Assembly (NCBI RefSeq): GCF_036711975.1
Contig: NC_091976.1
Location: 31,496,001-31,560,000 of the forward strand
Direction of reading: 5' to 3'
Length of the DNA: 64,000 nucleotides
Source: Onthophagus taurus
Taxonomy: Eukaryota > Arthropoda > Insecta > Coleoptera > Scarabaeidae
The position numbers and the translations under genes are program-made. Every line of letters starts with the position of its first letter. Position 1 is the first letter of the stretch. Below the pieces are notes generated by a model that was not told the origin of the DNA, did not search any database, and saw nothing but the letters and a program-made list of their open reading frames with translations. Of this stretch, positions 25,385 to 59,850 are shown in pieces.

Positions 25385-27886
25385 CCTAGTCATCTTTATT
25401 TCTTGATTTCAATGTTTTTGAATATGCTGACAATTATAACTGCCCAAGAGCACTGAGTGTGCGAAACTTTATTGATTTTTTAAATTTGAATCAAATCAAC
25501 ACAATCCGAAATGCCTATGGTAGAATTCTTGATTTAATTTTCACTAACTTGGATAGTCAAATTTGTATTGAGAAGGAGCTCTATCCTTTCGTTTCTGAGG
25601 ATAAGCATCATCCGGCGTTGACGACTGCTCTATCAATTGAAATTACAAAATTTCCGACTGTTTTTCCAAACGCTGTTGTCTCTCGATTTAACTTTCGAAG
25701 AGCGAATTTTCCGACTTTATATGATGACATTGCTCTCATGGATTGGTCATTTTTAGAAGATGTAAACGACGTGGACGAAATGTTGGATTTGTTTTATACT
25801 TCTCTTCATAATTTAATAGAGAAATCGGTGCCTTGCACTCAACAGAAGCAAAACAATTATCCTCAGTGGTTCTCTAAGGAAATAATTAAAAACCTTAAAA
25901 CTAAAGAGTACTATAGACACAAGTACAGAACTACCAAACAAACGTTCTATCTCGATCACTTCATTAGAATGAGATCACTAGTAAAAGAACAAATCGACGC
26001 TGCTTACAATTCCTTTTGGTAACATGCCTCTGATAATTTAAAGCACGATCCTAGTGATTTCTGGAATTTCGTTCGACTAAAGCAAGGTACTAGCAGAATA
26101 CCGTCGATCGTTAGAGATGATGTAGATGAATATACTATTCCGATTGATATAGTCAATGCTTTCGATTCCTATTTTTCATCTGTTTATTCTGACAATTCCA
26201 TGGATTTTACTGACGCAGTTCCCACGTTGCCAATGTTTAATATCCATCAGGTTACCGAGGAGGAGATAATTGCTGTAATGAGGGGTTTTAGCTCCAAACT
26301 CACAGCGGGTGAAGACCAAATACCTAGTTTTCTGGTACGAGATGTACGATTTGCGTTAGCTAAACCGTTGATGTACATTATTAATCGCTCTATAACTGCT
26401 TCGATTTTCCCTCAGAGATGGAAGTCAGCTAGAATCACGCCCGTATTTAAGAAAGGTGACAAGTCCTTGGTAACCAATTGCTATTCTATCTAATTTTGCA
26501 AAGGTATATGAGCAGATAATTTTTAATACAATTTATCGTCACACACAATCATATGTATCGCCTCACCAACATGGTTTTGTGCCTAAACGCTCGACAATAA
26601 CTAATTTATGTTGTCTTACCCAGTACGTCGCAGAGGTAATGGATGTTGGTGGACAAGTCGACGTAGCTTATACCGATTTTGAGAAGGCCTTTGATCGCAT
26701 TGATCACAGTATGTTGCTACAGAAATTGAGCTATTTTGGTATGTCTTCTAATTCATTAAATTTGATGAAATCGTACCTTGCTGATAGAGTATGTTGTGTT
26801 TTTTACAATGGATTTTATTCCGACGGCTACTCGCCTACATCTGGTGTTCCTCAAGGATCCAATCTGGGACCGCTGCTATTTGTTCTATATATAAACGATT
26901 TATTAGACTCGCTTACCTGTCCAGTGCTTGCTTATGCTGATGATTTGAAAATTTTTGTGGAGGTCAGATCATTGGATGACTCTAGGATGCTGCAGAACAA
27001 CCTGGACATTATTCAGAAGTGGTGCAATTTCAATGCCCTTTCTTTAAGTATCAGTAAATGTACTTATATATCATTTACAAAGAAATTAAATAAAATCGAC
27101 ACAGTTTATATTGCGGCTTCCATACCTCTAACAAGGGTCTCTACGGTGACGGATCTGGGAGTGCTGTTTGACTCAGAACTTTCTTTCTTGCCCTATATTG
27201 AGGAGATGTGCTCTCAGGCTTGGAGAACTTTGGGTTTCATACTGAGGATCATGGGTCGACCCAACCCTGAAAACGCTATTTATGGCTCTGGTGATCTCTC
27301 GCCTCCAGTATGCCTCTGTAATATGGTACCCTATTTACACGTCGCAACAACTAATGGTTGAGAAAGTCCAGCGTCGATTTCTCAAATTTTTGTCATATCG
27401 TATGGATGGTCAATATCCGCCTAAAGGAGTGAACTACTTAGATCTACTGCATCGCCACAAGCTTCCTTCTCTGCAGGATAGAAGAATGGTCCAAAGTGCC
27501 TCGTTCTTGCAAAAGTTGATGTGTGGTGAGATCGACTGTGCGTGGTTGTTGTCGCGAGTGAATATAGTGGTGCCGCGCATAAATTCTCGGTCCCATTTGT
27601 ATTTTTATCCACCTTTATGCAGAACAAATGTCAAAAAAAGGGCGCCGATAACACATATGATCACGAACATGAACGATAGTTGTAGGCTAGAATAAACATT
27701 GCATTTTCTGTCTCTTTTCTTGCCTCTTTTATTTGATTGTATTATTATTTAGGTATGTATTATATGCATTTTAATTTCACTTGTAATTATATTGATGTAC
27801 AATTTGTAATAATTTTAATATTTTGCCCTTAATATGGTGCGCTGTTGGGCAATAAAGTTTATTATTATTATTATTATTATTTATAG
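25385..27886 (+). mobile_element. LINE-B: Jockey-superfamily-type LINE nested in LINE-A
   Basis: A 5'-truncated non-LTR retrotransposon on the plus strand. It opens in the C-terminal part of the endonuclease (DFNVFEYADNY; RILDLIFTN). A linker follows and then reverse transcriptase: AGEDQIPSFLV, YTDFEKAFDRIDH, SGVPQGSNLGPLLF and AYADDLKIF. The YADD active site is intact. Readable frames are 25459-26022, 26200-26493, 26579-27361 and 27282-27695, so there is at least one stop (26020s) and two frameshifts (~26490 and ~27340). The 3' end has AATAAAG followed by a (TTA)n tail to about 27886. LINE-A sequence resumes immediately after. It is younger than LINE-A, because it is far better preserved. 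Confidence 0.85.
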
Positions 27887-31584: not shown

Positions 31585-33200
31585 ATGAAGATTTTAGCAG
31601 TGTTTATAATTTTTGTGGCTTCCAGCGTTTTGGCCATATCAAAGAATTCCACTAAAAATCTCCATCTAACCGCTAGTTTATCATTTGTAAAGTTTATAAA
31701 ATTATTTCTCCAAATTATTCGGAAGGCGAAAAGGTGGTTATGTGGTTTTTAGTGTTAGTTCTACTTTTACACTAGCACTGTTGCTATGTAGAACTAACAC
31801 TATACCTAGAACTAGAACCATTTGTATTACCTTGGTACCATCAATAGAACCAACACAAGTCCTAGAACTAGAATCATTCGGGTTTAACCGTCTAGAGAGA
31901 GGTGCGGCTAAATCCGAATGTTTCTAGTTCTCGATTTAGTGTTAGTTCTAGTATTGCATTAGCACTATCCCTAGAACAAACACAAGACCTAGAGCTAGAA
32001 TCATTTGGGTTTAGCCGTCTTGATAGACGTGCGGCTAAACCCGAATGTTTCTAGTTCTAGGTCTAGTGGTAGTTCTAGTTTTACACTAGCATTGTTACTA
32101 TGTAGAACTAACACTATACCTAGAACTAGAATTATTTAGCTGCACGTCTCTAAAAACGTCTAAACCCGAATGATTCTAGTTTTAGGTATAGTGTTAGTTC
32201 TAGTTTTACACTTGCACTGTCACTAGAACTAACATTAGACCTAGAACTAGAAACATTCGGATTTAGCCGCACGTCTCTCAAGACGGCTAAACCCGAATGA
32301 TTCTAGTTTTAGGTCTTGTGTTGGTTCTATTGATAGTGCTAGTGCTATACTAGAATTAACACTAGACCGAGAACTAGAAGCATTCGGATTTAGCTGCAAG
32401 TCTCTCAAGACAGCTAAACCCAAATGATTCTAGTTCTCGGTCTAGTGTTTGTTCTAGTATTGCACTCGGATTTAGCTGCAAGTCTCTCAAGACAGCTAAA
32501 CCCAAATGATTCTAGTTCTCGGTCTAGTGTTAGTTCTAGTATTGCCCTAGCACTATCAATAGAACCAAATCAAGAACTAGAACTAGAATCATTCGGGTTT
32601 AGCCGTCTTAAGAGACGTGCGGATAAACCGAAATGATTCTAGTTCTAGGTCTAATGTTAGTTCTAGTGACGGTGCAAGTGTAAAACTAGAACTAACACTA
32701 TACCTAGAACTAGAATCATTCGGGTTTAGCCGTCTTGAGAGACGTGCGGCTAAACCCAAATGTTTCTAGTTCTAGATCTAATGTTAGTTCTAGTGACAGT
32801 GATAGGTAGCGCTAGTTAGCATAACATATCACTATGTTGCATATTTTTATTGCACTAAAACTAGAACTAACACTAGACCTAGAACCAGAACCGTCTTCAG
32901 ACGCACGGCTAAACCCGATGCTTTCTTGTTCTAGGTCTAGAGTTAGTTCTAGTTTTACACTAGTTTCTAGTTCTAAGACCAGTGTTGAAATTCCCGGTAT
33001 AATTTATGTTTTTCTTATTTTTGTACCAGCTAGATGTTCTTCCAAACAATTTATGGACAGTGTGTAGCTGCTGATAAATTCCAAAAATATGATTATTAAA
33101 CATTTAGGTATTTATGTAATTGCAAATCTTCCTGAATACCCAATAAACAAAATTACAACTCCTGTATTATCTATAGATATTGAACAATTCTTAAGTGTTT
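31585..33200 (+). pseudogene. Lipase pseudogene split by a foldback satellite
   Basis: Exon 1 (31585-31686) is an intact 34-codon match to gene 7 exon 1 (MKILAVF..., NSTKNLHLTASLSF) with a GTAAAG donor. HP has become HL. Exon 2, with the nucleophile Ser, is gone. From about 33010 to 33200 a broken C-terminal exon remains: FVPARCSSKQF, then DKFQKYDY, NLPEYPINKITTPV and DIEQF in different frames with stops. The satellite at ~31735-32990 occupies the middle. It is derived from the gene 7/8 branch and cannot make a lipase. Confidence 0.82.
31735..32990. repeat. Foldback satellite, array A
   Basis: About ten ~125-130 bp units, each close to a palindrome. The hairpin TTTAGCCGTCTTGAGAGACG with GTGCGGCTAAA alternates with paired phrases such as CTAGAACTAACACTA and TAGTGTTAGTTCTAG. 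The units are more diverged than in array B. A boundary block near 32800-32860 (GTAGCGCTAGTTAGCATAAC) is also found at the right end of array B. Confidence 0.9.
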
Positions 33201-36570: not shown

Positions 36571-39015
36571 GTGAGAGACGTGCGGTTAAATCCGAATGTT
36601 TCTAGTTCTCGATCTAGTGTTAGTTCTAGTATTGCACTAGCACTATAAATAGAACTAACACAAGACCTAGAACTAGAATCATTCGGGTTTAGCCGTCTTG
36701 AAAGACGTGCGGCTAAATCCGAATGTTTCTTGTTCTCGGTCTAGTGTTAGTTCTAGTATTGCACTAGCACTATCAATAGAATTAACACTAGAACTAGAAT
36801 CATTCGGGTTTAGCCGTCTTGAGAGACGTGCGGCTAAATCCGAATGTTTCTAGTTCTCGATCTAGTGTTAGTTCTAGTATTGCACTAGCACTATAAATAG
36901 AACTAACACAAGACCGAGAATTAGAATCATTCGGGTTTAGCCGTCTTGAAAGACGTGCGGCTAAATCCGAATGTTTCTGGTTCTCGATCTAGTGTTAGTT
37001 CTAGTATTGCACTAGCACTATCAATAGAATTAACACTAGAACTAGAATCATTCGGGTTTAGCCGTCTTGAAAGACGTGCGGCTAAATCCAAATGTTTCTA
37101 GTTCTCGATCTAGTGTTAGTTCTAGTATTGCACTAGTACTATAAATAGAACTAACACAAGACCTAGAACTAGAATCATTCGGGTTTAGCCGTCTTGAAAG
37201 ACGTGCGGCTAAATCCGAATGTTTCTTGTTCTCGGTCTAGTGTTAGTTCTAGTATTGCACTAGCACTATCAATAGAATTAACACTAGAACTAGAATCATT
37301 CGGGTTTAGCCGTCTTGAGAGACGTGCGGCTAAATCCGAATGTTTCTAGTTCTCGATCTAGTGTTAGTTCTAGTATTGCACTAGCACTATAAATAGAACT
37401 AACACAACACCTAGAACTAGAATCATTCGGGTTTAGCCGTCTTGAAAGACGTGCGGCTAAATCCGAATGTTTCTTGTTCTCGGTCTAGTGTTAGTTCTAG
37501 TATTGCACTAGCACTATCAATAGAATTAACACTAGACCTAGAACTAGAATCATTCAGGTTTAGCCGTCTTGAGAGACGTGCGGCTAAATCCGAATGATTC
37601 TTGTTCTAGGTCTAATGTTAGTTCTAGTGACAGTGCAAGTGTAAAACTAGAGCTAGAACTAGAGTCTTGAGAGAAGTGCGGCTAAATCCGAATGTTTCTA
37701 GTTCTCGGTCTAGTGTTAGTTCTAGTATTGCACTAGCACTATAAATAGAACTAACACAAGACCTAGAACTAGAATCATTCGGGTTTAGCCGTCTTGAAAG
37801 ACGTGTGGCTAAATCCGAATGTTTCTAGTTCTCGATTTAGTGTTAGTTCTAGTATTGCACTAGCACTATAAATAGAACTAACATAAGACCTAGAACTAGA
37901 ATCATTCGGGTTTAGCCGTCTTGAAAGACGTGCGGCTAAATCCGAATGTTTCTTGTTCTCGATCTAGTGTTAGTTCTAGTATTGCACTAGCACTATAAAT
38001 AGAACTAACACAAGAACTAGAATCATTCGGGTTTAGCCGTCTTGAGAGACGTGCGGCTAAATCCGAATGTTTCTAGTTCTCGATCTAGTGTTAGTTCTAG
38101 TATTGCACTAGCACTATAAATAGAACTAACACAAGACCGAGAATTAGAATCATTCGGGTTTAGTCGTCTTGAAAGACGTGCGACTAAATCCGAATGTTTC
38201 TTGTTCTCGGTCTAGTGTTAGTTCTAGTATTGCACTAGCACTATAAATAGAATTAACACAAGACCGAGAATTAGAATCATTCGGGTTTAGCCGTCTTGAA
38301 AGACGTGCGGCTAAATCCGAATGTTTCTAGTTCTCGATCTAGTGTTAGTTCTAGTATTGCACTAGCACTATAAATAGAACTAACACAAGACCGAGAATTA
38401 GAATCATTCGGGTTTAGCCGTCTTGAAAGACGTGCGGCTAAATCCGAATGTTTCTAGTTCTCGATCTAGTGTTAGTTCTAGTATTGCACTAGCACTATAA
38501 ATAGAACTAACACAAGACCTAGAACTAGAATCATTCGGGTTTAGCCGTCTTGAAAGACGTGCGGCTAAATCCGAATGTTTCTTGTTCTCGGTCTAGTGTT
38601 AGTTCTAGTATTGCACTAGCACTATAAATAGAACTAACACAAGACCTAGAACTAGAATCATTCGGGTTTAGCCGTCTTGAAAGACGTGCGGCTAAATCCG
38701 AATGATTCTTGTTCTAGGTCTAATGTTAGTTCTAGTGACAGTGCAAGTGTAAAACTAGAGCTAGAACTAGAGTCTTGAGAGAAGTGCGGCTAAATCCGAA
38801 TGTTTCTAGTTTTCGGTCTAGTGTTAATTCTAGTATTGCACTAGCACTATTAATAGAATTAACACTAGACCTAGAACTAGAATCATTCGGGTTTAGCCGT
38901 CTTGAGAGACGCGCGGCTAAACCCGAATATTTCTAGTTCTAGATCTAATGTTAGTTCTAGTGACAGTGATGGGTAGCGCTAGTTAGCATAACATATCACT
39001 AGGTTGCATATTTTT
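36570..39015. repeat. Foldback satellite, array B (2.4 kb)
   Basis: About 19 units of 115-133 bp, highly alike. Each has the hairpin GGGTTTAGCCGTCTTGAAAG / ACGTGCGGCTAAATCC and the paired arms CTAGTGTTAGTTCTAG and CTAGAACTAACACAAG. Length differences come from a short CACAAGACCTAGAACTAG motif that is present or absent. Two copies of a variant unit (near 37600-37680 and 38695-38780) suggest a higher-order block of ~1.1 kb. The right end (38940-39015) shares the GTAGCGCTAGTTAGCATAAC block with array A. Confidence 0.93.
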
Positions 39016-39139: not shown

Positions 39140-39201
39140 AATCACGTGTTAATAACATTTTGTTTATTCATAAAACAAAAATTGAAAACATTTCTTTACA
39201 T

Positions 39202-40598
39202 TTACTCTTGATTTTTACGTAATTTCTTTAAAATTTTTTCATAAACGTTAGTTCTTGCATTCGAATTAAGAATCAAATCTAAGTTAGAATTGTAATCGTT
39301 AATCTTGATGTGTTCTTCGACTTTCGGCAATCGCTTCTCCAAAGTATCAACATCACGCTCATCAGCTAAAATGTCTTGTGGCACAGAAACCAAAACAACT
39401 GGGACGTTGATTTTGGTTAAATCGTATTCTTCGGAGTCTTCGTTTTTGTAATAAGGCTCGAATTTGTTGGTTTTGATTAATTGGGCGTAGTGAAGAAGTT
39501 CTTGGGTGGAAGTTTTGCTTGGGTAAGCTTGCGCAAATTTAGTAGCAATCGTCTAAAAATAAAAATTAATGAAATAAAATTCGTATTGATTTTTATATCT
39601 TACTCCTGGGTAATTACGAGCAAATCCATTCATGAGGAAATAAATGTTTCTACATAAATTTTCATCACCTTTTTTGTCTAAACATTTTTGTGTTATTTGT
39701 GAAACAAATTCATCGGATGGGATGAATTGGTGTGAACCCAACCATTTAGAAACCCACTAAAATTAAAAATTTAATAACCATAAATAATTTGCAAAAAAGA
39801 ACTTACAGCTGATGATTGATAATTTTCAGAAATAATTTGCATCATTGGATTCTTAGAATTTTCCATGTAAACAAGTGGGGCCAAAGCAACGATTTTTTCA
39901 ATTTTATTATTGTATTCGGGTTTTTGAGACAATAAAACGTAAACGGCCGAATTTGCTTGATTAAAACCGATGTAATACAATTTTTGTTGTCCGGAAACGC
40001 CAAGAACTTTATTGATTATTGATGGGAGATCTTTAACGCCCATATCATCAAAGCTATTTCGAAATAAATTATTATTTAAGATGTCTTAATTGTTTTAAAA
40101 CGTACCAATAATCCCAAAAAGCGCGATCTTTATGTCCATTCAATCGACTGTGGTGATCATCAGAATTACGAACACCTCTAAAGTTACCCAAAAAGACATC
40201 GAATCCTCTATCGGCCAAAAGATACGCGATGGAACTTTCAGAATTGATAACAAATTCGGAGGAATCCCCAAAAATACCGTGCATAAGCAAAACAACTGGT
40301 TTTTCGGTTTCAATTCTCCCAGATTGTTTTAATTGCTCTAAAACACTTTCTCTTTCATCTTTACTCCCCGCGATACGAGTTATTTCCAATTTGTAACCAT
40401 CTTGAGTTTCAACATATAAAGTTTGGGTTGGGTATCCTTCTTCTTTGGCTAATTTGGACTAAAAAATGAAGTATAAAAGTATATAATTAATATTAAAATT
40501 ATTTTTTTACTTACCGCATTGTAAGATCCCGATCCTAATGGGATGTGATGGGCGTTTACCGCCAAAACGAAAAGGGATAATGCTAAAAATGCTTTCAT
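39202..40598 (-). CDS. Gene 10: catalytically dead lipase-fold protein (395 aa)
   Basis: Secreted lipase homologue that probably lacks lipase activity. Exons on the minus strand: 40598-40515, 40458-40106, 40053-39807, 39756-39604 and 39552-39202, all GT-AG, all in frame, no internal stop. Exon 3 is 247 bp, as in genes 1 and 4. Signal peptide MKAFLALSLFVLAVNA. The fold motifs remain (LLMHGIFGDSSEF, LLADRGFDVFLGN, LHYAQLI). But the nucleophile elbow GHSQG is GFNQA, with Ser replaced by Asn177, and the catalytic His of FNHLDF is Asn369 (NSNLDL). Asp is kept (PQDIL). The mature end is basic (KILKKLRKNQE). A decayed gene would not keep five intact exons, so a non-enzymatic role such as binding or storage is likely (inference; compare fly yolk proteins). 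It shares the NR/TMIP intron position with genes 3, 9 and 12. Confidence 0.87.
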
Positions 40599-40599
40599 A

Positions 40600-41100
40600 T
40601 CGATCGATTGAACTGTGAAATAAATCAGTTGATGGGATTTAACGTTTTAGTCTCTTTTATACAAATTCGATTTTTGCAGATTTTGCATCTTGTTATAACA
40701 TTATCAGTTTTGACGTATTTAGAGATTCGCTGATGCTAAATTTGAAATCGTAGCGGTTTTAATATAAATGTACTTTGGACAATAATAAATACGTTTAGAA
40801 AATTGCAAACTATAAAAAAATATTTTTTTTAATAAGTTTCTCGTTATCAGCTTAAGTTTAGAGATTATTGTTTTTATTAATTTTTAAATAAAATAAAAAA
40901 CATATTTTTGTTAATTTTGAATACGTCGAACACATCCTACTTTGTCCTATTAATATCCTTTACTATTCTTCAACGCTGAAAAGGGTCGACTAAAATGTAC
41001 TCAGATTCACATTCTCGCAATCACTAATTGTGTCATCTTATCCATACCAATCTTTGATCTACCGCAATATAACCAACATTTAATGTATGCATCTTCAACA
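40600..41100. other. Upstream flank of gene 10
   Basis: AT-rich DNA carrying the gene 10 promoter zone (minus-strand AT-rich box near 40650-40670). From 40900 to 41100 nothing recognisable is seen. Confidence 0.35.
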
Positions 41101-41830: not shown

Positions 41831-42225
41831 AACTAGAATCATTCGGGTTTAGCCGTCTTGAAAGACGTGCGGCTAAATCCGAATGTTTCTACTTCTCGAT
41901 CTAGTGTTACTTCTAATATTGCACTATTACTAACAATAGAACTAACACAAGACCAAGAACTAGAATCATTCGGGTTTAGCCGTCTTAAGAGACGTGCGGC
42001 TAAATCCGAATGCTTCTAGTTCTCGGTCAAGTGTTAGTTCTAGTATTGCACTAGCAGTATTAATAGAACTAACACAAAACCTAGAACTAGAATCATTCGG
42101 GTCTAGCCGTCTTGAGAGACGCGCGGCTAAATCCGAATGTTTCTGATTCTCGCTCTAGTGTTAGTTCTAGTATTGCATTAGCACTACCCCTAAAACTATT
42201 ACAAGAGCTAGAACTAGAATCATTC
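41830..42225. repeat. Foldback satellite, array C
   Basis: Three to four units of the same palindromic repeat as arrays A and B, more diverged. The right end joins a 48-base copy of the transposon fragment (42226-42274 matches 41691-41738 with one difference). Confidence 0.9.
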
Positions 42226-45059: not shown

Positions 45060-48000
45060 TTATGAGTTCGACAATAAAAGTGCAGTAAGTGTTTTATAAA
45101 CATACGACGGCGCATCAATTCCAAAAATGAAATCTAAATGATTGAATTTAAGGTCTGGAACTAAAATGTAAGCTTGTGGATTAGCCAATTCGCTGTAAAG
45201 TGTCATGACGTCTTTGTACGATGATAACCAATCGTTCATGCTATGAAAAATGTAAACGGGAACTTTAACGTTTTTTAAATTGTAATTTGGAGGATTCCAC
45301 GATCGGTATCTTTTAATATTTCCGATAAATCCATAATCAAATTGTCTAAAATAACCGGATTTAATTTCTTGTGAAAAATGTAAAAGTTGTTTCGTTGAAG
45401 AACCAGCTGGGGTGTGACCTAATATCACCGGTAACATTGTTGTATTCATTTGGGCTTTATTAAAACCGCATAAAGCGAAAATTGTATTTGTACATATTTG
45501 TTGGGTGAAATCGCCATCTTTACACATAGTAATCCCAACGTTTGCCATAAATTCCGAATTTGGTAAAAACTCATTTACACCAACCAAAGAAAATATTTGT
45601 CCTAACCCCCAAGCTCCGTAAGACAACGTTTTAAGAAGAGGACTTTTCATATGACTCACATAAGCAATCGGCGCCATACTAAATTGTGATATAATTTTCG
45701 AATTATATTCAGGTCTTTCAGAACACATAACATAAAAAATCGTATTTCCTTGCGAATGACCGACATATTGAAGTTTTTCATGACCGGTCGTTTCAAGAAC
45801 GTAATCGATCATCGCCGGAAGATCATAAACGCCAAGTTCGTGCCAAGAAAAATCCCAAAATTCGGGAGAATCGGTTGCTAAATAGGTGTGATTTCTTGAA
45901 TAACGATTTCCTCTTGAGTTTCCCATCCAAACATCATAACCCATCTCAACTAATATGTAACCTAGATACAACAAAAATAGTTATTTATATTACAAGTGGG
46001 GTAGAAACTAAATTACTGTACGAGTGTGGAGAATTATGCACGAGTACTGTAATTATGCTCTAGCCCACGTGTGATATACAACATTTTATCTACGACTGCT
46101 AAAAATTACTTAAAAATCAATTTCTTTGAAAAGTTTTAATAATATGTTTAATAAATTAAGTTTATTCTGATTAGGCTAAAAATGCGTTACGTAATGAAAC
46201 CAGTGCGGTAATGAACTTCATTACGTAACTCGAATCACCTCAAATGAGTGTGGTAATGATGACTTATCCAAACAGTCGTAGATAATAGTTATTTATATTA
46301 CAAGTGCGCTAGAAACATAGTTACTGTATGTGTAATCACACGAGTACTGTAATTATGCTCTAGCCCACGTGTGATATACAGCATTTTATCTACGACTACT
46401 AAAAATTACTTAAAAATCAATTTCTTTGAAAAGTTTCAATAATATGTTTAATAAATTAAGTCTATTCTGATTGGGCTAAAAATCCGTTACATAATGAAAC
46501 CAGTGCGGTAATGAACTTCATTACGTAACTCGAATCACCTCAAATGAGTGTGGTAATGAGTTATCCAAGCAGTCGTAGATAATAGTTATTTATATTACAA
46601 GTGGGCTAGAAACATAATTAATGTATATGTAATCACACGAGTACTGTAATTATGCTCTAGCCCACGTGCGATATACAGCATTTTATCTACGACTGCTAAA
46701 AATTATTAAAAAATCAATTTCTTTGAAAAGTTTCAATAATATGTTTAATAAATTAAGTCTATTCTGATTGGGCTAAAAATCCGTTACGTAATGAAACCAG
46801 TGCGGTAATGAACTTCATTACGTAACTCGAATCACCTCAAATGAGTGTGGTAATGATGACTTATCCAAGCAGTCGTAGATAATAGTTATTTATATTACAA
46901 GTGGGGTAGAAACTAAATTACTGTACGAGTGTGGAGAATTGCACGATGAGTACTGTAATTATGCTCTAGCCCAAGTGTGATATACAACATTTTATCTACG
47001 ACTGCTAAAAATTACTTAAAAATCAATTTCTTTGAAAAGTTTCAATAATATGTTTAATAAATTAAGTCTATTCTGATTGGGCTAAAAATCCGTTACGTAA
47101 TGAAACCAGTGCGGTAATGAACTTCATTACGTAACTCGAATCACCTCAAATGAGTGTGGTAATGATGACTTATCCAAGCAGTCGTAGATAATAGTTGTTT
47201 ATATTACAAGTGGGCTAGAAACATAATTACTGTATGTGTAATCACACGAGTACTGTAATTATGCTCTAGCCCACGTGTGATATACAGCATTTTATCTACG
47301 ACTGCTAAAAATTACTTAAAAATCAATTTCTTTGAAAAGTTTCAATAATATGTTTAATAAATTAAGTCTATTCTGATTGGGCTAAAAATCCGTTACATAA
47401 TGAAACCAGTGCGGTAATGAACTTCATTACGTAACTCGAATCACCTCAAATGAGTGTGGTAATGATGACTTATCCAAGCAGTCGTAGATAATAGTTATTT
47501 ATATTACAAGTGGGCTAGAAACATAATTACTGTATGTGTAATCACACGAGTACTGTAATTATGCTCTAGCCCAAGTGTGATATACAACATTTTATCTACG
47601 ACCGCTAAAAATTACTTAAAAATCAATTTCTTTGAAAAGTTTCAATAATATGTTTAATAAATTAAGTCTATTCTGATTGGGCTAAAAATCCGTTACGTAA
47701 TGAAACCAGTGCGGTAATGAACTTCATTACGTAACTCGAATCACCTCAGATGAGTGTGGTAATGATGACTTATCCAAGCAGTCGTAGATAATAGTTATTT
47801 ATATTACAAGTGGGCTAGAAACATAATTACTGTATGTGTAATCACACGAGTACTGTAATTATGCTCTAGCCCACGTGCGATATACAGCATTTTATCTACG
47901 ACTGCTAAAAATTACTTAAAAATCAATTTCTTTGAAAAGTTTCAATAATATGTTTAATAAATTAAGTCTATTCTGATTGGGCTAAAAATCCGTTGCGTAA

Positions 48001-49876
48001 TGAAACCAGTGCGGTAATGAACTTCATTACGTAACTCGAATCACCTCAAATGAGTGTGGTAATGATGACTTATCCAAGCAGTCGTAGATAATAGTTATTT
48101 ATATTACAAGTGCGCTAGAAACATAATTACTGTATGTGTAATCACACGAGTACTGTAATTATGCTCTAGCCCACGTGTGATATACAACATTTTATCTACG
48201 ACTGCTAAAAATTACTTAAAAATCAATTTCTTTGAAAAGTTTCAATAATATGTTTAATAAATTAAGTCTATTCTGATTGGGCTAAAAATGCGTTACGTAA
48301 TGAAACCAGTGCGGTAATGAACTTCATTACGTAACTCAAATCATCTCAAATGAGTGTGGTAATGATGACTTATCCAAGCAGTCGTAGATAATAGTTATTT
48401 ATATTACAAGTGGGCTAGAAACATAATTACTGTATGTGTAATCACACGAGTAATGTAATTATGCTCTAGCCCACGTGCGATATACAGCATTTTATCTACG
48501 ACTGCTAAAAATTACTTAAAAATCAATTTCTTTGAAAAGTTTCAATAATATGTTTAATAAATTAAGTCTATTCTGATTGGGCTAAAAATCCGTTACGTAA
48601 TGAAACCAGTGCGGTAATGAACTTCATTACGTAACTCGAATCACCTCAAATGAGTGTGGTAATGGTGAGTTATCCAAGCAGTCGTAGATAATAGTTATTT
48701 ATATTACAAATGCGCTAGAAACATAATTACTGTATGTGTAATCACACGAGTACTGTAATTATGCTCTAGCCCACGTGTGATATACAGCATTTTATCTACG
48801 ACTGCTAAAAATTATTAAAAAATCAATTTCTTTGAAAAGTTTCAATAATATGTTTAATAAATTAAGTCTATTCTGATTGGGCTAAAAATCCGTTGCGTAA
48901 TGAAACCAGTGCGGTAATGAACTTCATTACGTAACTCGAATCACCTCAAATGAGTGTGGTAATGATGACTTATCCAAGCAGTCGTAGATAATAGTCATTT
49001 ATATTACAAGTGCGCTAGGAACATAATTACTGTATGTGTAATCACACGAGTACTGTAATTATGCTCTAGCCCACGTGGGATATACAGCATTTTATCTACG
49101 ACTGCTAAAAATTACTAAAAAATCAATTTCTTTAAAAAAGTCTATTTAACATTTATAAAAATATTTTGAAATGATTGTTGACAATTTTGAATTGTCAGTA
49201 TCAACAACATGTTTACTCATCTGGAATAAGTGTAAAAATATATAAATTAATGTTTATAATAAATAGTATTGTTTCTCTGTAAGTAGATAACACTTTTTCT
49301 TTTGTATTGTTGCTCGTTTCAATAAATTAAGTCTGTTCTGATTAGGCTAAAAATGCGTTACGTAATGAAACCAGTGCGGTAATGAACTTCATTACGTAAC
49401 TCGAATCACCTCAAATGAGTGTGGTAATGATGACTTATCCAAGCAGTCGTAGATAAAATTTATTTATAAAGTGAGATAAAAAATTACCTAATGCTTTATT
49501 TGGACCCATTAAAACCCAATCACCGGAAGATGCTAATATTCCATGTTGCATAAAAACAACAGGTTTTTTTATATTTTTATCATTTGTTTCATATTTTCCA
49601 TGAGCCATTCGATGTAAACTAAGAATATATCCATCTTGAGTAACCACATCATGAATTTCGCAAGGATATCCAGCTTTTTCAATTAATTCCGGCTTTAAAA
49701 ATTATTAAAGTTTAAATCTATAAAAAAGTAATTTAAAAAATACTAACCACGCTTAATAAAGCATCAACAGGAACTTTTCTATCTAGTTTTAAAGCACGAG
49801 ACCAACTTTCCGGTAAGATTCCCCCATATACGTTAAGAATCAAACAAGTTAATATTAAAACTTTTATAGTAGTCAT
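45060..49876 (-). CDS. Gene 11: secreted acid lipase (411 aa) with satellite-filled intron
   Basis: Acid lipase on the minus strand. Exons 49876-49748, 49692-49488 and 45961-45060. Signal peptide about residues 1-19 (ends VYGG). The second intron (49487-45962, 3,526 bp) holds the 300-bp satellite. The junction is phase 1: KAL, a split Gly, then YILVEMGYDVW. No other gene here has an intron at that place. Oxyanion motif MQHGILASSGDW; Ser181 in GHSQGNT; Asp355 in SMNDW; His386 in FNHLDF. The 902-bp last exon is uninterrupted. Splice sites are GT-AG and the total is in frame, so the gene looks functional despite the repeats. Without splicing across the array the gene would look like two fragments. 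Confidence 0.87.
45975..49455. repeat. 300-bp palindromic satellite inside the gene 11 intron
   Basis: About eleven copies at exactly 300-base steps (AATGATGACT at 47161, 47461, 47761, 48061, 48361 and so on). Each unit contains nested inverted repeats: AGCAGTCGTAGATAA with TTATCTACGACTGCT, inside it GGGCTAGAAACATAATTAC with GTAATTATGCTCTAGCCC, and a second hairpin TTACGTAATGAA with TTCATTACGTAA. Copies are about 95-99% alike. About 180 unrelated bases (49137-49316) break the last unit. Confidence 0.95.
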
Positions 49877-50228: not shown

Positions 50229-53200
50229 TTAATATTGGCTAAACATCTCGATAATTTTATCGTTCACTAATACATCAGCATCATCGGCTGCAAGAAACGC
50301 AACATGATTCCACATATCTCTATCAATTTTGTAATCGAAAACACAATTTGGAAGTAATTTTATAAATTCTTGAACTCCCTACAAAAAAAAATTAAAGAAA
50401 TGTTTATGAAGACATAAAAAAAATTTTTACTTTAACATCAGCAAATGTATCATATTCGCTGTACATTACAGCAATGGGAGCTGTAACTTTACTAATATTG
50501 TACTCAGGTGGTTGTAAAGTACCGTAACGTTGTATATTTTCTTCGGGGCCGTAATCAAATTTTTGAAATCGCTCTAAATAAAATTTATTTGGCAGGTTAA
50601 AATGTTTCTTTTAAAAATGATTTGGTCGTTTACTTGAATTATATAATTGGGCATAATGTAATAATTGACGGAATGATAACCCTCCTGGTAAATTACTTAC
50701 TGCTACGTTGTAAATTCTCTAAAAATTAAAATTATAATTAAACATGAAAATATTTTAGTTAAAAAAAAGATAATTTTAGGAAATTAACATGGTATTTTCA
50801 GCATTCTAAAATCTAGTTAGTGTAATTCCAGAGTTTTTCTTCTAATCCAGAATCGAAGTGTATCAACCTTTAATTTATGTGCTATGATTTCAGATATTTT
50901 CTGGAATATTGATGCACTGTGATTAATTACTGATCATACTAAGTCAACCAGTGACAGAGAAAGATTGGTGGCGATTTGGTGAAGAAGTATCTGCCATGAT
51001 CTGCGTCAGGAAAGTATCCGATTTTGTAAAATTATGCTGTCCATACTGGAAGGCAATAGCAACTAAGTCTACAAGGTTGTAGATGAGCGATAACTTCGCC
51101 TTCCCCAGTTTTATGAAACACCAGACTCAAAGGGCAAAACTGTTTTAAGCTTTTTAATTGATTGAAAGGTAGTGTTTGACACAATGAACAGGCGGAAGCT
51201 GATAGAAAAGTCATAGAGCAGGAATTGATAGAGAGATATGCGAAGGGATTAGATATGTTCTTAGAATCTTAGCTTATTTGCACGATACACAGCGGATATT
51301 GAAAACAGATTACAGAAAGAGAGAAGTTTCTCACTGAGAGACAGGTTTTTTTGATCCGACAGACTAACTACAGATGTGCATCCTTTTTTGGATGGAATTC
51401 GTATCAAAATCAACCACTTTCCATTCACTTGGTTTTCCACAACGAGTTGGTTCCTTGAAAGTTGTTAAGCTTGCTCCAGCTACATTTTATTCGGTCTTCC
51501 TTTATTTACTTCCTTTACTAATTCAAGATGATTTAGCAATTTCCAACATTTCCATAATTTTTTTAATGAATTTAATGTTTGCCACATTGAAGTACTTCGT
51601 CAGTCAAGACAAACATCCACTCAAGGCTTGGTCTTCTCCGCATCCTATTGGATCATGACTTCCAATTAGCTTCCATTATTCGCTCCAAGTCTATCTTTGT
51701 CAAGTGTCAGTGAGTACAGTGAATTTTCTAAGCATGTTTTTTGCTCCCTCTATTTACTTCGCCGTCATCAGAACATACTCAGTTATAACCCATACTTAAA
51801 CGGTAGTCTTTATCATAATCCATCATCTAAAGAAAGCTCTTTTCAGGTATCATAGCCATCGAGTCTGCATACTTTCTATTGTTGTATCGGAGGTTGGCAG
51901 GAATGAATTTTTTGGATTTTCTCAATTCCAATAGTTATAAGTATTATTCGTATAAGTTTCTAAAAGTTTATAAGTATTATTATAAGTTATAATAAGTATT
52001 ATTCGTGATACTTGGGTTGGGAAAGAATCTCGGCTGACTTCTAAGACGTCGGCCGCCATAAATATTGCTCGTGATACTTGGACGTCTTCGAAGTCGGACG
52101 AGATTCTTTCCCAACCCAAGAAGTATCACGAACAATATTTATGGCAGGCAACTTCTTCGAAGTGGGTCGGCAGCCTAAATATTGTTCCTGATTCTTTCTC
52201 AACCCAAGTATTATGAACAATATGTATGGTGGCTAACATCTTCGAAGTGTATCGATATATCACGAACAATACTCAGAACAATAATATTCTGTTAATATAA
52301 GAAATATAAAAAATGCTTGAATGGTATAGAACGTATTTTGGCAAAGGTGGTTCTTTACAGCATTCTTCATTCTTGCAAAGGATAGATCTCGTACCGACGC
52401 AGGTAGATGGTTAAAGAATTTAATGCCCCAATAGTTGGCATTGTTTACGCAGTTCCTTTTTGTTTCTAGTGTGATAGTTATGTGAATCACAGTTTTTTGG
52501 CAGAAGGTATAATTTCTGGTGAACATTCTTTATACAGTTGAATATATATAATGCAGGTAAGGTAAGTATTTTATACCGAGCAAAATAACTTCTACAACTT
52601 TCTCTGCTTCCCAGGTTGAACAGTGCCCTTATCGCTCGTTTCTGAAGTGTAAATGCTCTTTCGGCTGCCGAAGAAGCTCCCCAGAATAGGATACCGTAGA
52701 TTCTTTCCCAACCCAAGTATCACGAACAATACTCTGAACAATAACATTCTGTTGATATAAGAAATAATCTCAGCCGAATAATCTCGTCGGCCGCCATAAA
52801 TATTGTTCGTGGTACTTGGGTTGGGAAATAATCTCAGCCGGTTTTGAAGATGTCCATAAGTATTGTTCGTGGTACTTGGGGCGGCCGACGTTTTCGAAGT
52901 CGTACTCTGAACAATAATATTCTGTTGATATCAAAAATAATCTCGAAGATGCCGGCCGCTATAACTATTGTTCGTGATACTTGGGTTGGGAAAGAATCTT
53001 AGCTGACTTCGAAGATGACGGGCGCCATAAATATTGTTCGTGATACTTGGGTTGGGAAAGAATCTCGGCCGACGTCTTCGGTGTGGGATATATCACGTAC
53101 AATACTCTGAACAATAATATTCTGTTAATATAAGAAATAGCCTCAGCCGACTTCGTAAATGTCGGCCGCAATAAATATTGTTCGTGATACTTTTGTTGGG

Positions 53201-56200
53201 AAAGAATCTCGGCCGACTTCGAAGACGTCGGCCGTCATAAGTATTATTCGTGATACTTGGGTTGAGCAATAATCTCGGCCAACTTTGAAGATGTCCATAA
53301 CTATTGTTCGTGGTACTTGGGGTGGTCGACGTTTTCGAAGTCGTACTCTGAACAATAATATTCTGTTGATATCAAAAATAATCTCGAAGATGCCGGCCGC
53401 TATAAATATTGTTCGTGATACTTGGGTTGAGAAAGAATCTCGGCCCATTTTGAAGATCATAAGTATTGTTCGTGGTATTTGGGGCGGCCGACGTCTTCGA
53501 AGTCGGCCGAGATTCTTTCCCAACCCAAGTATCATGAACAATATTTATGGCGGCGAATGTCTTCGGTGTGAGATATATCACGAACAATACTCTGAACAAT
53601 AATATTCTGTTAATATAAGAAATAGTCTCAGCCGACTTCGTAAATGTCGGCCGCTATAAATATTGTTCGTCATACTTGGGTTGGGAAAGAATCTCGGCCG
53701 ACTTCGAAGACGTCGGCCCCCATAAGTATTATTCATGATACTTGGGTTGAGCAATAATCTCGGCCGACTTTGAAGATGTCCATAACTATTGCTCGTGGTA
53801 CTTGGGGTGGTCGACGTTTTCGAAATCGTACTCTGAACAATAATATTCGGTTGATATCAAAAATAATCTCGAAGATGCCGGCCGTCATAAATATTGGTCG
53901 TGATACTTGGGATGAGAAAGAATCTCGACCCACTTTGAAGATCATAAGTATTGTTCGTGGTACTTGGGGCGGCCGACGTCTTGGAAGTCGGCCGAGATTC
54001 TTTCCCAACCGAAGTATCATGAACAATATTTATGGCGGCGAATGTCTTCGGTGTGGGATATATCACGAACAATACTCTGAACAATAATATTCTGTTAATA
54101 TAAGAAATAGCCTCAGCCGACTTCGTAAATGTCGGCCGCTATAAATATTGTTCGTCATACTTGGGTTGGGAAAGCATCTCGGCCGACTTCGAAGACGTCG
54201 GCCCCCATAAGTATTATTCATGATACTTGGGTTGAGCAATAATCTCGGCCGACTTTGAAGATGTCCATAACTATTGCTAGTGGTACTTGGGCCGGTCGAC
54301 GTCTTCGAAGTCGTACTCTGAACAATAATATTCTGTTGATATCAAAAATAATCTCGAAGATACCGGCCGCCATAAATATTGTTCGTGATACTTAGGTTGG
54401 GAAAGAATCTTGGCCGACTTCGAAGATCATAAGTATTGCTCGTGGTACTTGGGGCGGCCGACGTCTTCGAAGTCGGCCGAGATTCTTTCCCAACCCAAGT
54501 ATCATGAACAATATTTATGGCGGCGAATGTCTTCGGTGTGGGATATATCACGAACAATACTCTGAACAATAATATTCTGTTAATATAAGAAATAGCCTCA
54601 GCCGACTTCGTAAATGTCGGCTGCTATAAATATTGTTCGTCATACTTGGGTTGGGAAAGAATCTCGGCCGACTTCGAAGACGTCGGCCCCCATAAGTATT
54701 ATTCATGATACTTGGGTTGAGCAATAATCTCGGCCGACTTTGAAGATGTCCATAACTATTGCTCGTGGTACTTGGGGTGGTCGACGTTTTCGAAGTCGTA
54801 CTCTGAACAATAATATTCTGTTGATATCAAAAGTAATCTCGAAGATGCCGGCCGCTATAAATATTGTTCGTGATACTTAAGTTGGGAAAGAATCTCGGCC
54901 GACTTCGAAGATCATAAGTATTGCTCGTAGTACTTGGGGCGGCCGACGTCTTCGAAGTCGGCCGAGATTCTTTCCCAACCCAAGTATCATGAACAATATT
55001 TATGGCGGCGAATGTCTTCGGTGTGGGATATATCACGAACAATACTCTGAACAATAATATTCTGTTAATATAAGAAATAGCCTCAGCCGACTTCGTAAAT
55101 GTCGGCCGCTATAAATATTGTTCGTCATACTTGGGTTGGGAAAGAATCTCGGCCGACTTCGAAGACGTCGGCCGCCATAAGTATTATTCGTGATACTTGG
55201 GTTGAGCAATAATCTCGGCCGACTTTGAAGATGTCCATAACTATTGCTCGTGGTACTTGGGGTGGTCGACGTTTTCGAAATCGTACTCTGAACAATAATA
55301 TTCTGTTGATATCAAAAATAATCTCGAAGATACCGGCCGCCATAAATATTGTTCGTGATACTTAAGTTGGGAAAGAATCTCGGCCAACTTCGAAGATCAT
55401 AAGTATTGCTCGTGGTACTTGGGGCGGCCGACGTCTTCGAAGTCGGCCGAGAGTCTTTCCCAACCCAAGTATCATGAACAATATTAGAATATTCTGTTAA
55501 TATAAGAAATAGCCTCAGCCGACTTCGTAAATGTCGGCTGCTATAAATATTGTTCGTCATACTTGGGTTGGGAAAGAATCTCGGCCGACTTCGAAGACGT
55601 CGGCCCCCATAAGTATTATTCATGATACTTGGGTTGAGCAATAATCTCGGCCGACTTTGAAGATGTCCATAACTATTGCTCGTGGTACTTGGGGTGGTCG
55701 ACGTTTTCGAAGTCGTACTCTGAACAATAATATTCTGTTGATATCAAAAGTAATCTCGAAGATGCCGGCCGCTATAAATATTGTTCGTGATACTTAAGTT
55801 GGGAAAGAATCTCGGCCGACTTCGAAGATCATAAGTATTGCTCGTAGTACTTGGGGCGGCCGACGTCTTCGAAGTCGGCCGAGATTCTTTCCCAACCCAA
55901 GTATCATGAACAATATTTATGGCGGCGAATGTCTTCGGTGTGGGATATATCACGAACAATACTCTGAACAATAATATTCTGTTAATATAAGAAATAGCCT
56001 CAGCCGACTTCGTAAATGTCGGCCGCTATAAATATTGTTCGTCATACTTGGGTTGGGAAAGAATCTCGGCCGACTTCGAAGACGTCGGCCGCCATAAGTA
56101 TTATTCGTGATACTTGGGTTGAGCAATAATCTCGGCCGACTTTGAAGATGTCCATAACTATTGCTCGTGGTACTTGGGGTGGTCGACGTTTTCGAAATCG

Positions 56201-58917
56201 TACTCTGAACAATAATATTCTGTTGATATCAAAAATAATCTCGAAGATACCGGCCGCCATAAATATTGTTCGTGATACTTAAGTTGGGAAAGAATCTCGG
56301 CCAACTTCGAAGATCATAAGTATTGCTCGTGGTACTTGGGGCGGCCGACGTCTTCGAAGTCGGCCGAGAGTCTTTCCCAACCCAAGTATCATGAACAATA
56401 TTAGAATATTCTGTTAATATAAGAAATAGCCTCAGCCGACTTCGTAAATGTCGGCCGCTATAAATATTGTTCATCATACTTGGGTTGGGAAAGCATCTCG
56501 GCCGACTTCGAATACGTCGGCCCCCATAAGTATTATTCGTGATACTTGGGTTGAGCAATAATCTCGGCCGACTTTGAAGATGTCCATAACTATTGCTCGT
56601 GGTACTTGGGACGGTCGACGTCTTCGAAATCGTACTCTGAACAATAATATTCTGTTAATATCAAAAGTAATCTCGAAGATGCCGGCTGCCATAAATATTG
56701 TTCGTGATACTTAGGTTGGGAAAGAATCTCGGCCGACTTCGAAGATCATAAGTATTGCTCGTGGTACTTGGGGCGGTCGACGTCTTCGAAGTCGGCCGAG
56801 ATTCTTTCCCAACCCAAGTATCATGAACAATATTTGTGGCTGCCAACGTTTTCGAAGTGGGGTATATCACGAACAATACTCTGAACAATAATATTCTGAT
56901 CCGTACATTATTTCAGCGAGCAGCGAGACTATGTGAAGGAGAGAACTTGAAGAAGAAGCAACACTTTCTACGAGGCGTGCTGCAGAAGAATGGATACACT
57001 TCGAGGGACATCAACCAGGTCATCAAGCAGCGAAAGCAGAAAGAGGACACGGTAAGTACAAAACCACTTGGATTTATCTGTCTTCCCTATGTTTCGGGTG
57101 TAACGGAACGAATTGCTAGGCACCTCAAGAAGAACGACATCGTAGTGCGGTACGGCACGGTCAGCAAAATTCGGAACACACTCCCGATAGCCAAGGACAA
57201 ACTAATTCCATTAAAAGGAGCAGGAGTCTATCGACTATCGTGTAGTTGTGGGAAGGTTTATGTTGGCCAAACTGGACGCAACGTCGAGAGGGATGTAAGG
57301 CTGAAGAAGATCCAGCAGTCGGCGGTTGCGGAACATTGCCATGCAGAGGGGCACCGAATAGACTTCGAACAAACAAAGATGCTGGCTAGGGACAACAGAT
57401 ACTACCAAAGACTGACAAGAGAAGCCATAGAGATCCACCGACATAAAAATAATGTTGATATAAAATATAATCTCAGTCGACTTCGAAGATGCTGGCGGCC
57501 ATAAATATAATTTTCGTGATACTTGGGTTGGGAAAGAATCTCGGCTGACTTCGAAGTCGTCGACCGCCATAAGTATTATTCGTGATGCCTGGGTTGGGAA
57601 ATAATTTCGGCTGACTTTGAAGATGTCCATAGGTATTGCTCGTGGTACTTGAGGCGGCCGACGTCTTCGAAGTCGGCCGAGATTCCTTCCCAACCCAAGT
57701 ATCACATACTTAGACTTGATGGGTGAAGTACGCAGATTTTTGGAGTAAACTGAATTATGTCTTTGGTTTTCCCTTATTAATTTATTTATGATATTCACAT
57801 TGTGATATATTTTTGGGACTCGGATAACAATTTGTACACACTTAATCTCCAATGGATTTTGTTCTATTGGCAGAAGTCCCCAACTCATTAATATCATTGT
57901 TGCTGTTTCTGGATATTGTCAAAGAAATTTTATTGAAAAGAAAATTTGAAGATTTTTTTCGGCTTATAAAAAATACGTTTAACGATATTTCTTACCCTAT
58001 CGATTTGGATTGAATCATATCCCATTATTAAATTAAGAGATCCTTGACAAATAAAAGCGAAAATACTTCTGCATAAAGTTCTTAAAAAACTTCTAAGCGT
58101 AGCACCACTCGGTATTTCATAAATTTGCAAATAATCAAGAAGCCCCTAAAAAAACGTATTAAATTAAATTAATTAGTAATAATTTATAATTTAATTTGAT
58201 ACCCTTATAGCTTCAATATTCTCTGAAATAACCAAAATTAATGCGTTCCTATTAAATTTAGTAACCACAGCGGGTCCAATTAAAACGCCCAATCGAATTT
58301 TATCGTTCATTTCAGGTTTTTCCGTATTCATAGCTATGAAAGCAGATCCTCCTTGAGAATGTCCAATAAAAAAAACTTTTTTCTGCCCCGTAACTTCGAT
58401 AATATAATTGATTTCGGCCGAATAATCGTAAACGCCGATTTCTTCCCAGGTGAACATCCAAAATTGTCTCGAACGATTACTTAAATTTTGATGTCTTCGC
58501 GACCATCGAGTCCCTCTCGCGTTACCCACCCAAACATCATAACCACCCTCTACTAAAGCAAAAGCTAAACTTCGATGACCCATCATAAAAAATTCAACTG
58601 AACTTCCACCTGCGCCGTGAGCTATTACAACAGCGGGTCGGTTTAAACGATTCGTGCTATTAATTCCGTACGGAATTCGATGCATTTCGATTATGTAACC
58701 ATCTTCGGTGGTTATCCTATGACGTTCTATTGGATAATTGTATTTTTTCGCTAATTGAAACTTATTTAAAAAAGAGAATTGAATTAATGGTTAAGTAAAT
58801 GAGATTACTCACTGGTGTTAAGCCGCTATTTCCTGAAATATCTTTCACGGTTTCGTTATCTAATCCATTTGTGGATTTAGCTGTAAATAAAATCAGGAAA
58901 ATGTTTAGGAATAACAT
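50229..58917 (-). CDS. Gene 12: secreted acid lipase (396 aa) with a 7.3-kb intron
   Basis: Acid lipase on the minus strand in six exons: 58917-58813, 58760-58203, 58145-57996, 50718-50634, 50573-50431 and 50378-50229. All splice sites are GT-AG and the total is in frame. Signal peptide about residues 1-13. Oxyanion motif AHGAGGSSVEF; Ser170 in GHSQGGS; Asp341 in SEYDT; His372 in MWNHVAF. Intron 3 (57995-50719, 7,277 bp) joins IQIDR to RIYNVAVSNLPGG, exactly where family members read LNR/TMIPVIMTNTPAG, so the two halves belong to one gene. It keeps the largest set of the family's introns, including the phase-1 one otherwise found only in gene 3. The intron is filled with LINE debris, satellite and a Penelope-like remnant. 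The NHVAF form of the His motif is divergent. Confidence 0.82.
50765..51990. other. Part of gene 12 intron 3, unassigned
   Basis: Low-complexity and unique DNA with many stops. The region near 50940-51260 may be decayed LINE sequence, but I could not fix a motif. The open frame at 51374-51658 has no recognisable match. Confidence 0.3.
51990..56897. repeat. GC-rich satellite in gene 12 intron 3 with 917-bp higher-order unit
   Basis: Built from a ~50-70 base theme: GATACTTGGGTTGGGAAAG, AATCTCGGCCGACTTCGAAG, ACGTCGGCCGCCATAA and (T)ATTGTTCGTG, in both orientations. A ~485-base composite repeats at about 54050, 54535 and 55020. A 917-base block repeats with few differences (54603-55520 against 55520-56440). 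It is much richer in GC than the surroundings. Its many minus-strand open frames of 72-109 codons are translations of the repeat and are not genes. Confidence 0.92.
52320..52700 (-). mobile_element. LINE C-terminal fragment within the satellite
   Basis: Minus-strand frames read YGILFWGASSAAERAFTLQK, RAIRALFNLGSRESCRSYF, ILTLPALYIFNCI, YHTRNKKELRKQC and, after a frameshift, GIKFFNHLPASVRDLSF. This is the end of a LINE reverse transcriptase protein (the F..QKR.IR and YxTR...FN.LP blocks). Satellite lies on both sides, so it inserted there or was captured. Confidence 0.65.
56898..57452 (+). mobile_element. Penelope-like element fragment with GIY-YIG domain
   Basis: An open plus-strand frame begins within satellite and reads RTLFQRAARLCEGEN, YTSRDINQVIKQRK, then FICLPYVSGVTERIARHLKK and PLKGAGVYRLSCSCGKVYVG. 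The GVYRL..CGKVYVGQTGR block is the GIY-YIG endonuclease of Penelope-like elements. A short piece after VERDVRLK seems missing, but SAVAEHCHAEGHRIDFEQ follows. No reverse transcriptase domain is present, so only the C-terminal part remains. The satellite resumes at its 3' edge, still in the same reading frame. Confidence 0.8.
57453..57720. repeat. Last satellite units of gene 12 intron 3
   Basis: Four to five themes of the GC-rich satellite, directly after the Penelope-like fragment. From 57720 to 57995 the intron is plain AT-rich DNA. Confidence 0.85.
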
Positions 58918-59049: not shown

Positions 59050-59850
59050 TTTTTTTTTACAACTTTACATTTGGGAGAGCTTTGGATAACTCTTCATTAT
59101 CCTAGAATAAAAATTAATTAATTAATTTATATTTAGTATAAATTAGTTTTGTAAAAACCTCTTGAGATGAAAAAGAATCCGTTTTTCCATAAAATATCGC
59201 AACAGGAGTAGTCAGCTTGCTTATATTGTATAAAGGTGGTTTTATCGAACCATATCGTTTAAGATTACCATCTGGGCCATAATCGTATTTCTGAAATCGC
59301 CCTAACAATGTGCTAATTGTCTAAAAGAAAGTCCTGCTGGAATATTACCCATCGCGGCCGGAAGTAATCTCTGAAATTAATCGAATCAACATCGCGTTAC
59401 CTATCCAAATATCATATCCAGCCTCAAAAGTTATACTTCTTTTCCCCATCAATAAGAATTCAACGGAACTTCCACCACTTCCGTGTCCAATAAGAATTGA
59501 TGGTCTAGTTGAGTTATTTTTGTTATTAAGACCATATGGAACTCGGTGGATTTCAATGATATATTCATCTTCTGTCATAAGTTGATGACGCTCTATTGGA
59601 TATCCATATTAATTCGCTATCTCAATCTAAAATAATATTAATGTTAAATAAAAGTTATAATTAATTATTAAATAAAAAAAAACTTACAGTGTTTAAATTT
59701 CTATGGGTTAATAGATCATGGTAAGTGTCATTATCAAGTTGATAAGTATTTCCGGTTAAAATTAATTGTAGAAAATTAATTAGTAAAAATAGAAACGATG
59801 CTGTAAATAGTATTATTAAATGAACAAATTTAGTTCAGATTAAACTCAAA
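59050..59850 (-). pseudogene. Lipase pseudogene related to gene 12
   Basis: The minus strand shows a signal-like exon (59810-59700) without a start Met. Next is an exon reading YGYPIERHQLMTEDEYIIEI with a stop in front (the codon before YGYPIE), then IGHGSGGSSVEFLLMG and AGYDIWIGNA. From there it jumps to RLLPAAMGNIPAGLSFRQLA, so the middle with the nucleophile Ser is deleted. A further exon reads RFQKYDYGPDGNLKRYGS, VAIFYGKTDSFSS; the last reads DNEELSKALPNVKL and stops before the His motif. Genes 12 and this copy share GGSSVEF. Dead duplicate. Confidence 0.8.

Follow-up and report, generated by a model that had tools for sequence, protein, structure and literature searches.

A predicted secreted pseudo-lipase with asparagine at two catalytic sites in a tandem acid lipase array of the beetle Onthophagus taurus

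Non-catalytic lipases are reported as a regular part of insect genomes, and the passages available from these reports show few functions for them. Among the neutral and acid lipases of insects, 10% on average have lost the catalytic motif (PMC7240578, citing Horne et al. 2009), and the same source describes 11 of 58 lipases without the motif in Pteromalus puparum; in fig wasps, an incomplete triad is present in 5 of 182 acid lipases (PMC9143690). Lepidoptera use non-catalytic acid lipases as yolk proteins, and the yolk proteins of cyclorrhaphan flies are likewise lipase-derived and non-catalytic (PMC7240578). The available portions of PMC1462989 and PMC3011924 contain nothing on inactive acid lipases, and those of the latter, a review, do not mention a lipase descent of yolk proteins.

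The window described here, by which we mean the whole 64,000-nucleotide stretch analysed (C11:31496001-31560000), belongs to a genome of 290.8 Mb in 33 contigs, whose vitellogenin, acid lipase array and short introns are in keeping with an insect. Gene 10 lies on the minus strand at 40598-39202, these and all further positions being those of the window unless a contig is named. Splice-aware alignment upholds the structure proposed in the initial annotation, with five exons, four introns that are all GT-AG, and an intact 395-codon frame closed by a TAA stop. The features of the gene are as follows.

40654-40661, minus strand: TATA box TATAAAAG, about 31 nt upstream of the initiator-like site, read by eye
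40627-40632, minus strand: initiator-like TCAACT, read by eye
40515-40598, minus strand: exon 1, with the start codon and the signal-peptide-like MKAFLALSLFVLAVNA-HH, the signal peptide being judged by eye
40106-40458, minus strand: exon 2, with the Abhydro_lipase region and the oxyanion-side HG motif (MHGIFGDSS)
39807-40053, minus strand: exon 3, with the nucleophile elbow and the beginning of the cap domain
39960-39962, minus strand: codon AAT of N177 (GFNQA), the catalytic Ser position by alignment
39604-39756, minus strand: exon 4, cap and lid, carrying the conserved Cys253-Cys263 pair
39202-39552, minus strand: exon 5, with the cap end, the Asp and His segments and the TAA stop
39373-39375, minus strand: codon GAC of D339, the catalytic Asp by alignment, kept
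39283-39285, minus strand: codon AAC of N369 (NSNLDL), the catalytic His position by alignment
39163-39168, minus strand: polyadenylation signal AATAAA, starting 34 nt past the stop, read by eye

Comparison by hand shows that introns 2 and 3 match intron positions of the paralogue g31497418 and that intron 4 matches one of g31502527. Because introns 2-4 sit where paralogue introns sit, we rule out an origin of gene 10 as a retrocopy. There is no near-identical second copy in the genome, the other places being 28-45% identical, and a search for orthologues in non-insect collections, with a reach limited to close relatives, returned one pattern match in viral contigs and 16 in genome contigs, none of them confirmed.

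Tandem arrays of a 127-base unit flank gene 10 at 36572-38968 and 41831-42225; the unit contains a palindrome-like stretch, TTCGGGTTTAGCCGTCTTGA..., and a related array is found at 31840-32801. A 162-base unit is present in 38 copies at 7818-13993, and a strong GC skew (0.39) at 8-12 kb falls inside this array. Two neighbouring lipase genes are modelled with long introns that hold arrays of their own: the acid lipase gene g31545689 (45075-49689, minus strand) has an intron of about 3.5 kb (45962-49487) with a 300-base tandem array at 45976-49138, and g31554757 has one of about 7 kb (50719-57995) with 485/432-base arrays at 53074-56834. Within the latter intron, the open frame at 56827-57504 resembles, on inspection by eye, a Penelope-like GIY-YIG endonuclease, with no Pfam match at E ≤ 0.001. 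Open frames of non-LTR retrotransposon type lie at 25390-27695, with the reverse transcriptase domain RVT_1 in 26474-27358 (E = 3.9e-30), and a DUF4817 helix-turn-helix open frame (E = 9.5e-9), a type common in transposon-related proteins, lies at 61420-61755 on the minus strand. An Rfam search of the window gave nothing that reaches the gathering score.

By its sequence, gene 10 is a member of the acid (gastric/lysosomal-type) lipase family. It exceeds the Pfam cut-offs for both PF04083 (57.5 bits against 27) and PF00561 (52.2 against 25.8), and human lysosomal acid lipase (LAL; 6v7n), which together with the gastric lipases of solved structure served as the homology reference, aligns over residues 26-394 with E = 4.3e-44. 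The neutral (pancreatic-type) lipase family is absent among the six Pfam matches of gene 10 at E ≤ 1, and an NCBIfam search gave no match at E ≤ 0.1.

Gene 10 sits in a tandem array of such genes, PF04083 being found at no fewer than 28 places genome-wide, 25 of them within C11:31.463-31.601 Mb. Our comparison set consists of gene 10, 23 further near-full-length genes of the cluster and one partial homologue on C7, giving 25 aligned rows; all were modelled with a splice-aware aligner, and the models begin at the conserved ELxxKYGYP block and not at each Met. The triad counts leave out four rows, namely the partial model g31541980, which is a duplicate, the relic g31555623 with its single exon, and two partial models at C11:20.77-20.79 Mb that are weak. 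The relic lies beside g31554757 at 59393-59623 on the minus strand (C11:31555393-31555623) and has an in-frame TAA inside its PF04083 match, its alignment covering query residues 6-82 only. Among the 24 near-full-length genes Ser is kept in 22, His in 23 and Asp in all 24, so that the residue loss in gene 10 is not a matter of chance; the partial C7 homologue also has Ser. The triad is complete in 22 genes and two lack the Ser. Two of the intact-triad paralogues (C11:31463278-31464488 and C11:31577062-31575735) have HPG or TPG on the oxyanion side where most others have HG or HC.

Aligned with the 22 near-full-length paralogues that retain an intact triad, the triad sites of gene 10 are N177 (in GFNQA), D339 and N369 (in NSNLDL), and alignment with human LAL assigns identical positions; the proposal that Ser and His are both replaced by Asn thus holds in two separate comparisons. 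The Ser-Asp-His triad of a competent acid lipase is therefore incomplete, with Asp alone remaining. In all 23 Ser-bearing homologues compared, the Ser codon is TCN, from any of which the AAT of gene 10 is at least two changes away, so the substitution probably took two or more steps unless the ancestor used AGY. At the His position the other 23 genes with sequence there all have CAY, and the AAC of gene 10 is reachable from it in one step. The Gly two residues past the Ser site is Ala in gene 10, and the closest His to N369 is H360, nine residues upstream, whose aligned counterpart in human LAL is a non-catalytic His. Other parts of the family architecture are retained. Gln178 and the oxyanion-side HG are present, as are P241 and G272, which align with the lid hinges of LAL (hinge positions from PMC7397744), and Cys253 and Cys263 correspond to the cap disulfide Cys-227/Cys-236 of the human enzyme (PMC7397744), both columns being Cys in 25 of 25 rows. 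Gene 10 also has about 12 additional residues as an insert at 66-77, and at the cap end it lacks about 10 of those that form the conserved FDYG..N..YG..PP stretch.

The second Ser-less acid lipase, g31478026, lies outside the window at C11:31478026-31479287, to which a first exon is added. It reads GHGQG at the nucleophile elbow (Ser to Gly), has His and Asp, and shows MHQ for MHG on the oxyanion side; it too is intact, and it has a stop and a first exon of its own that resembles a signal peptide. Gene 10 is the most diverged of the 24 near-full-length cluster genes, with the longest terminal branch in the protein tree (1.49), followed by g31463278, which has an intact triad (1.16), and g31478026 (0.92). 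The position of gene 10 in the tree has low support (36%), and all five constrained topologies, four of which concern gene 10, survive the AU test (p 0.18-0.55), including one with a single Ser loss shared by gene 10 and g31478026 (p 0.50).

We examined selection by fitting a codon branch model to 347 codons, using the maximum likelihood tree and four topologies that constrain gene 10. Against a background omega of 0.10, omega on the gene 10 branch peaks at 0.2-0.3 on the five topologies, and a value of 1 is rejected on each (2dlnL 13.7, 13.7, 12.2, 8.1 and 17.3); the lowest of these, 8.1, comes from the topology that scores best of the five by codon likelihood, which places gene 10 beside g31545689. 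These foreground values were read from likelihood grids, whose maximum is -22545.60 compared with -22545.74 for the free fit, and they are rough because dS is saturated on the branch (3.4-5.1); on the maximum likelihood topology the profile stays within 2 log units across 0.02-0.5. The difference from the background is not significant (2dlnL 1.1). When seven branches are compared, gene 10 rejects omega = 1 least, with 13.4 against 24.2-54.4 in the other six.

Purifying selection has thus acted on the gene 10 branch as a whole. This branch spans time both before and after catalysis was lost, and its values do not separate constraint in the two periods; we infer that selection continued after the loss from these values together with a calculation of unconstrained decay. 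For the latter we took 11 neutral distances, assumed a kappa of 2 and let three paralogues with an intact triad represent the ancestor. The probability that both residues would be lost with no stop arising does not exceed 7.6e-4 per gene and falls to 2.2e-4 if frameshifting indels are assumed to make up 5% of changes; over 24 genes the figures come to about 0.018 and, with indels, 0.005. The claim of the initial annotation, a non-enzymatic secreted protein kept by selection, is therefore supported, though indirectly and without being proved: the rejection of omega = 1, the improbability of decay without a stop, and the intact promoter-like elements, splice sites and polyadenylation signal speak for it, and the inclusion of pre-loss time in the branch speaks against reading it as settled.

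Gene 10 has also changed besides its triad. Of the positions that 19 or more of 21 intact paralogues conserve, with equal thresholds for Ser-less and other genes, it keeps 0.63 compared with 0.83 predicted from its overall divergence (z -7.3); the corresponding values for g31478026 are 66% and 90% (z -8.9), and the most diverged intact paralogue, g31463278, has a z of -2.3, these figures including the contribution of the triad sites themselves. Expressed as a sequence average, with limits drawn from the human LAL cap (184-308; PMC7397744) and by eye, the GRAVY value of the cap (208-322) is -0.77, where the 23 paralogues average -0.04 (z -4.5), and that of the lid (236-275) is -0.50 against 0.36 (z -3.3), each the lowest of 24; gene 10 thus lacks the hydrophobic cap and lid of its paralogues. 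The C-terminal core (323-395) is shifted in the same direction (-0.58 against 0.07, z -3.7), and the N-terminal core (30-207) is ordinary (z -0.8). The shift is not a product of AT bias at silent sites, because GC3 (0.31) is ordinary for the cluster. The frequency of A at second codon positions, 0.42, is the highest of 25, as the content of Lys, Glu, Asp and Asn requires, the protein being rich in Lys and Glu. The hydrophilic cap and lid are the most distinctive feature of gene 10; since the C-terminal core has shifted too, what has happened may be a general change of surface or composition rather than the rebuilding of a lid.

Taken as a whole class, a non-catalytic, secreted and soluble protein kept by selection is the probable identity of the gene 10 product. 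We infer its secretion, its inactivity and its action as a soluble protein from features of the sequence. It would be a secreted pseudo-lipase in which the cap disulfide pair and the alpha/beta-hydrolase domains of an acid lipase survive but which, lacking both nucleophile and base, could not hydrolyse esters by the mechanism of the family; its gene would persist as a protein-coding gene under purifying selection. Such a protein would no longer sit on lipid surfaces, and action in solution seems the likeliest because cap, lid and C-terminal core have lost their hydrophobic character. It could be a binding partner, decoy or regulator that recognizes the targets of the active paralogues, or a bulk secreted protein of gut, egg or seminal fluid. 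The choice of a soluble binder or regulator over a bulk storage protein is less likely than not to be right, the more so because the hydrophilic shift extends past the cap and lid.

The initial annotation had offered a lipid carrier among its suggestions, a non-hydrolysing protein whose old acyl pocket would bind fatty acids, glycerides or hydrocarbons for gut, haemolymph or egg. The retained oxyanion-side HG, Asp, cap disulfide pair and hinge-aligned P241 and G272 are compatible with this, and non-catalytic insect lipases have been discussed as lipid binders (PMC7240578), but the most hydrophilic cap and lid of the 24 genes, together with the shifted C-terminal core, argue against it, as does the missing stretch at the cap end. 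A carrier is thus not supported: a protein acting in solution as a binder or regulator, or as a store, fits better, and a carrier is in our judgement improbable for gene 10; the role would better suit g31478026, whose lid is hydrophobic (GRAVY 0.30). A storage or structural protein of the egg, by analogy with the lepidopteran non-catalytic acid lipases, is rather unlikely, though it is a sub-case of the soluble secreted class and shares in the confidence given to that class. The signal-peptide-like start, the TATA box, the hydrophilic product rich in Lys and Glu and the precedent within the acid lipase family (PMC7240578) would fit such a yolk role, which is possible, but replacement of the usual yolk protein would be needless because the genome encodes vitellogenin: at C8:7.81 Mb an open frame has Vitellogenin_N and Vit_open_b-sht, and the next open frame on the same strand has VWD. 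We have therefore dropped yolk-protein replacement as an expectation.

That gene 10 was inactivated recently and is heading towards a pseudogene, its frame intact for lack of time, seems to us no more probable than the carrier. A short unconstrained final phase would be compatible with the branch-wide omega, and the branch is both the longest in the tree and the one with the weakest rejection of omega = 1 among the seven; set against this are the low probability, no higher than 7.6e-4 per gene, that both residues go before a stop arises, the two or more changes needed from TCN to reach Asn, and the intact TATA box, splice sites and polyadenylation signal. It is very improbable that the protein is still an enzyme acting through a shifted nucleophile or a different chemistry. 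Although Asp339, Gln178 and the oxyanion-side HG are present, H360 aligns with a His that is non-catalytic in LAL, Ala replaces the Gly two past the Ser site, and the cap and lid are altered.

The two Ser-less genes may also represent two routes to a non-enzyme. On one, g31478026 would have kept its greasy lid and could still bind lipid; on the other, gene 10 would have turned its cap, lid and C-terminal core into a soluble surface and come to act on its active neighbours as a secreted decoy or regulator. In the two genes Ser has given way to Asn and to Gly, residues that can fit the strained geometry of the nucleophile elbow, and such replacements would be expected if the stability of the fold, rather than decay, shaped this site. 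We regard this scenario as speculative, somewhat less likely than the binder or regulator role proposed for gene 10.

Compared with described systems, gene 10 most resembles the insect acid lipases (PF04083 and PF00561, the family of human LIPA and gastric lipase), with which it shares the domains, the cap disulfide, the Asp and a signal-peptide-like start, and inside a tandem array of which it is placed. It differs from them in the replacement of Ser and His by Asn, in the hydrophilic cap, lid and C-terminal core, in the insert at 66-77, and in the residues gone from the cap end. With the non-catalytic insect lipases it shares an incomplete triad, and its frame is intact; among the substitutions named in the available portions of PMC7240578 and PMC9143690, none is Asn at both the Ser and the His of an acid lipase. 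The family of the cyclorrhaphan yolk proteins is that of the neutral (pancreatic-type) lipases, for which gene 10 has no match at E ≤ 1, and the likeness to insect yolk proteins drawn in the initial annotation is therefore loose: descent from lipases and absence of catalysis are shared, but the fly proteins are neutral lipases and gene 10 is an acid lipase. The non-catalytic acid lipases that serve as yolk proteins in Lepidoptera, as described in the available text of PMC7240578, are a nearer analogue, with the difference that the genome carrying gene 10 has vitellogenin. Gene 10 thus belongs to an already known kind, the non-catalytic insect lipases, since two of 24 in the cluster agrees with the shares reported for such proteins. 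With 22 complete triads beside two Ser-less members, one with a hydrophilic and one with a hydrophobic lid, the cluster offers a compact set for the study of the roles that a lipase fold can take after catalysis.
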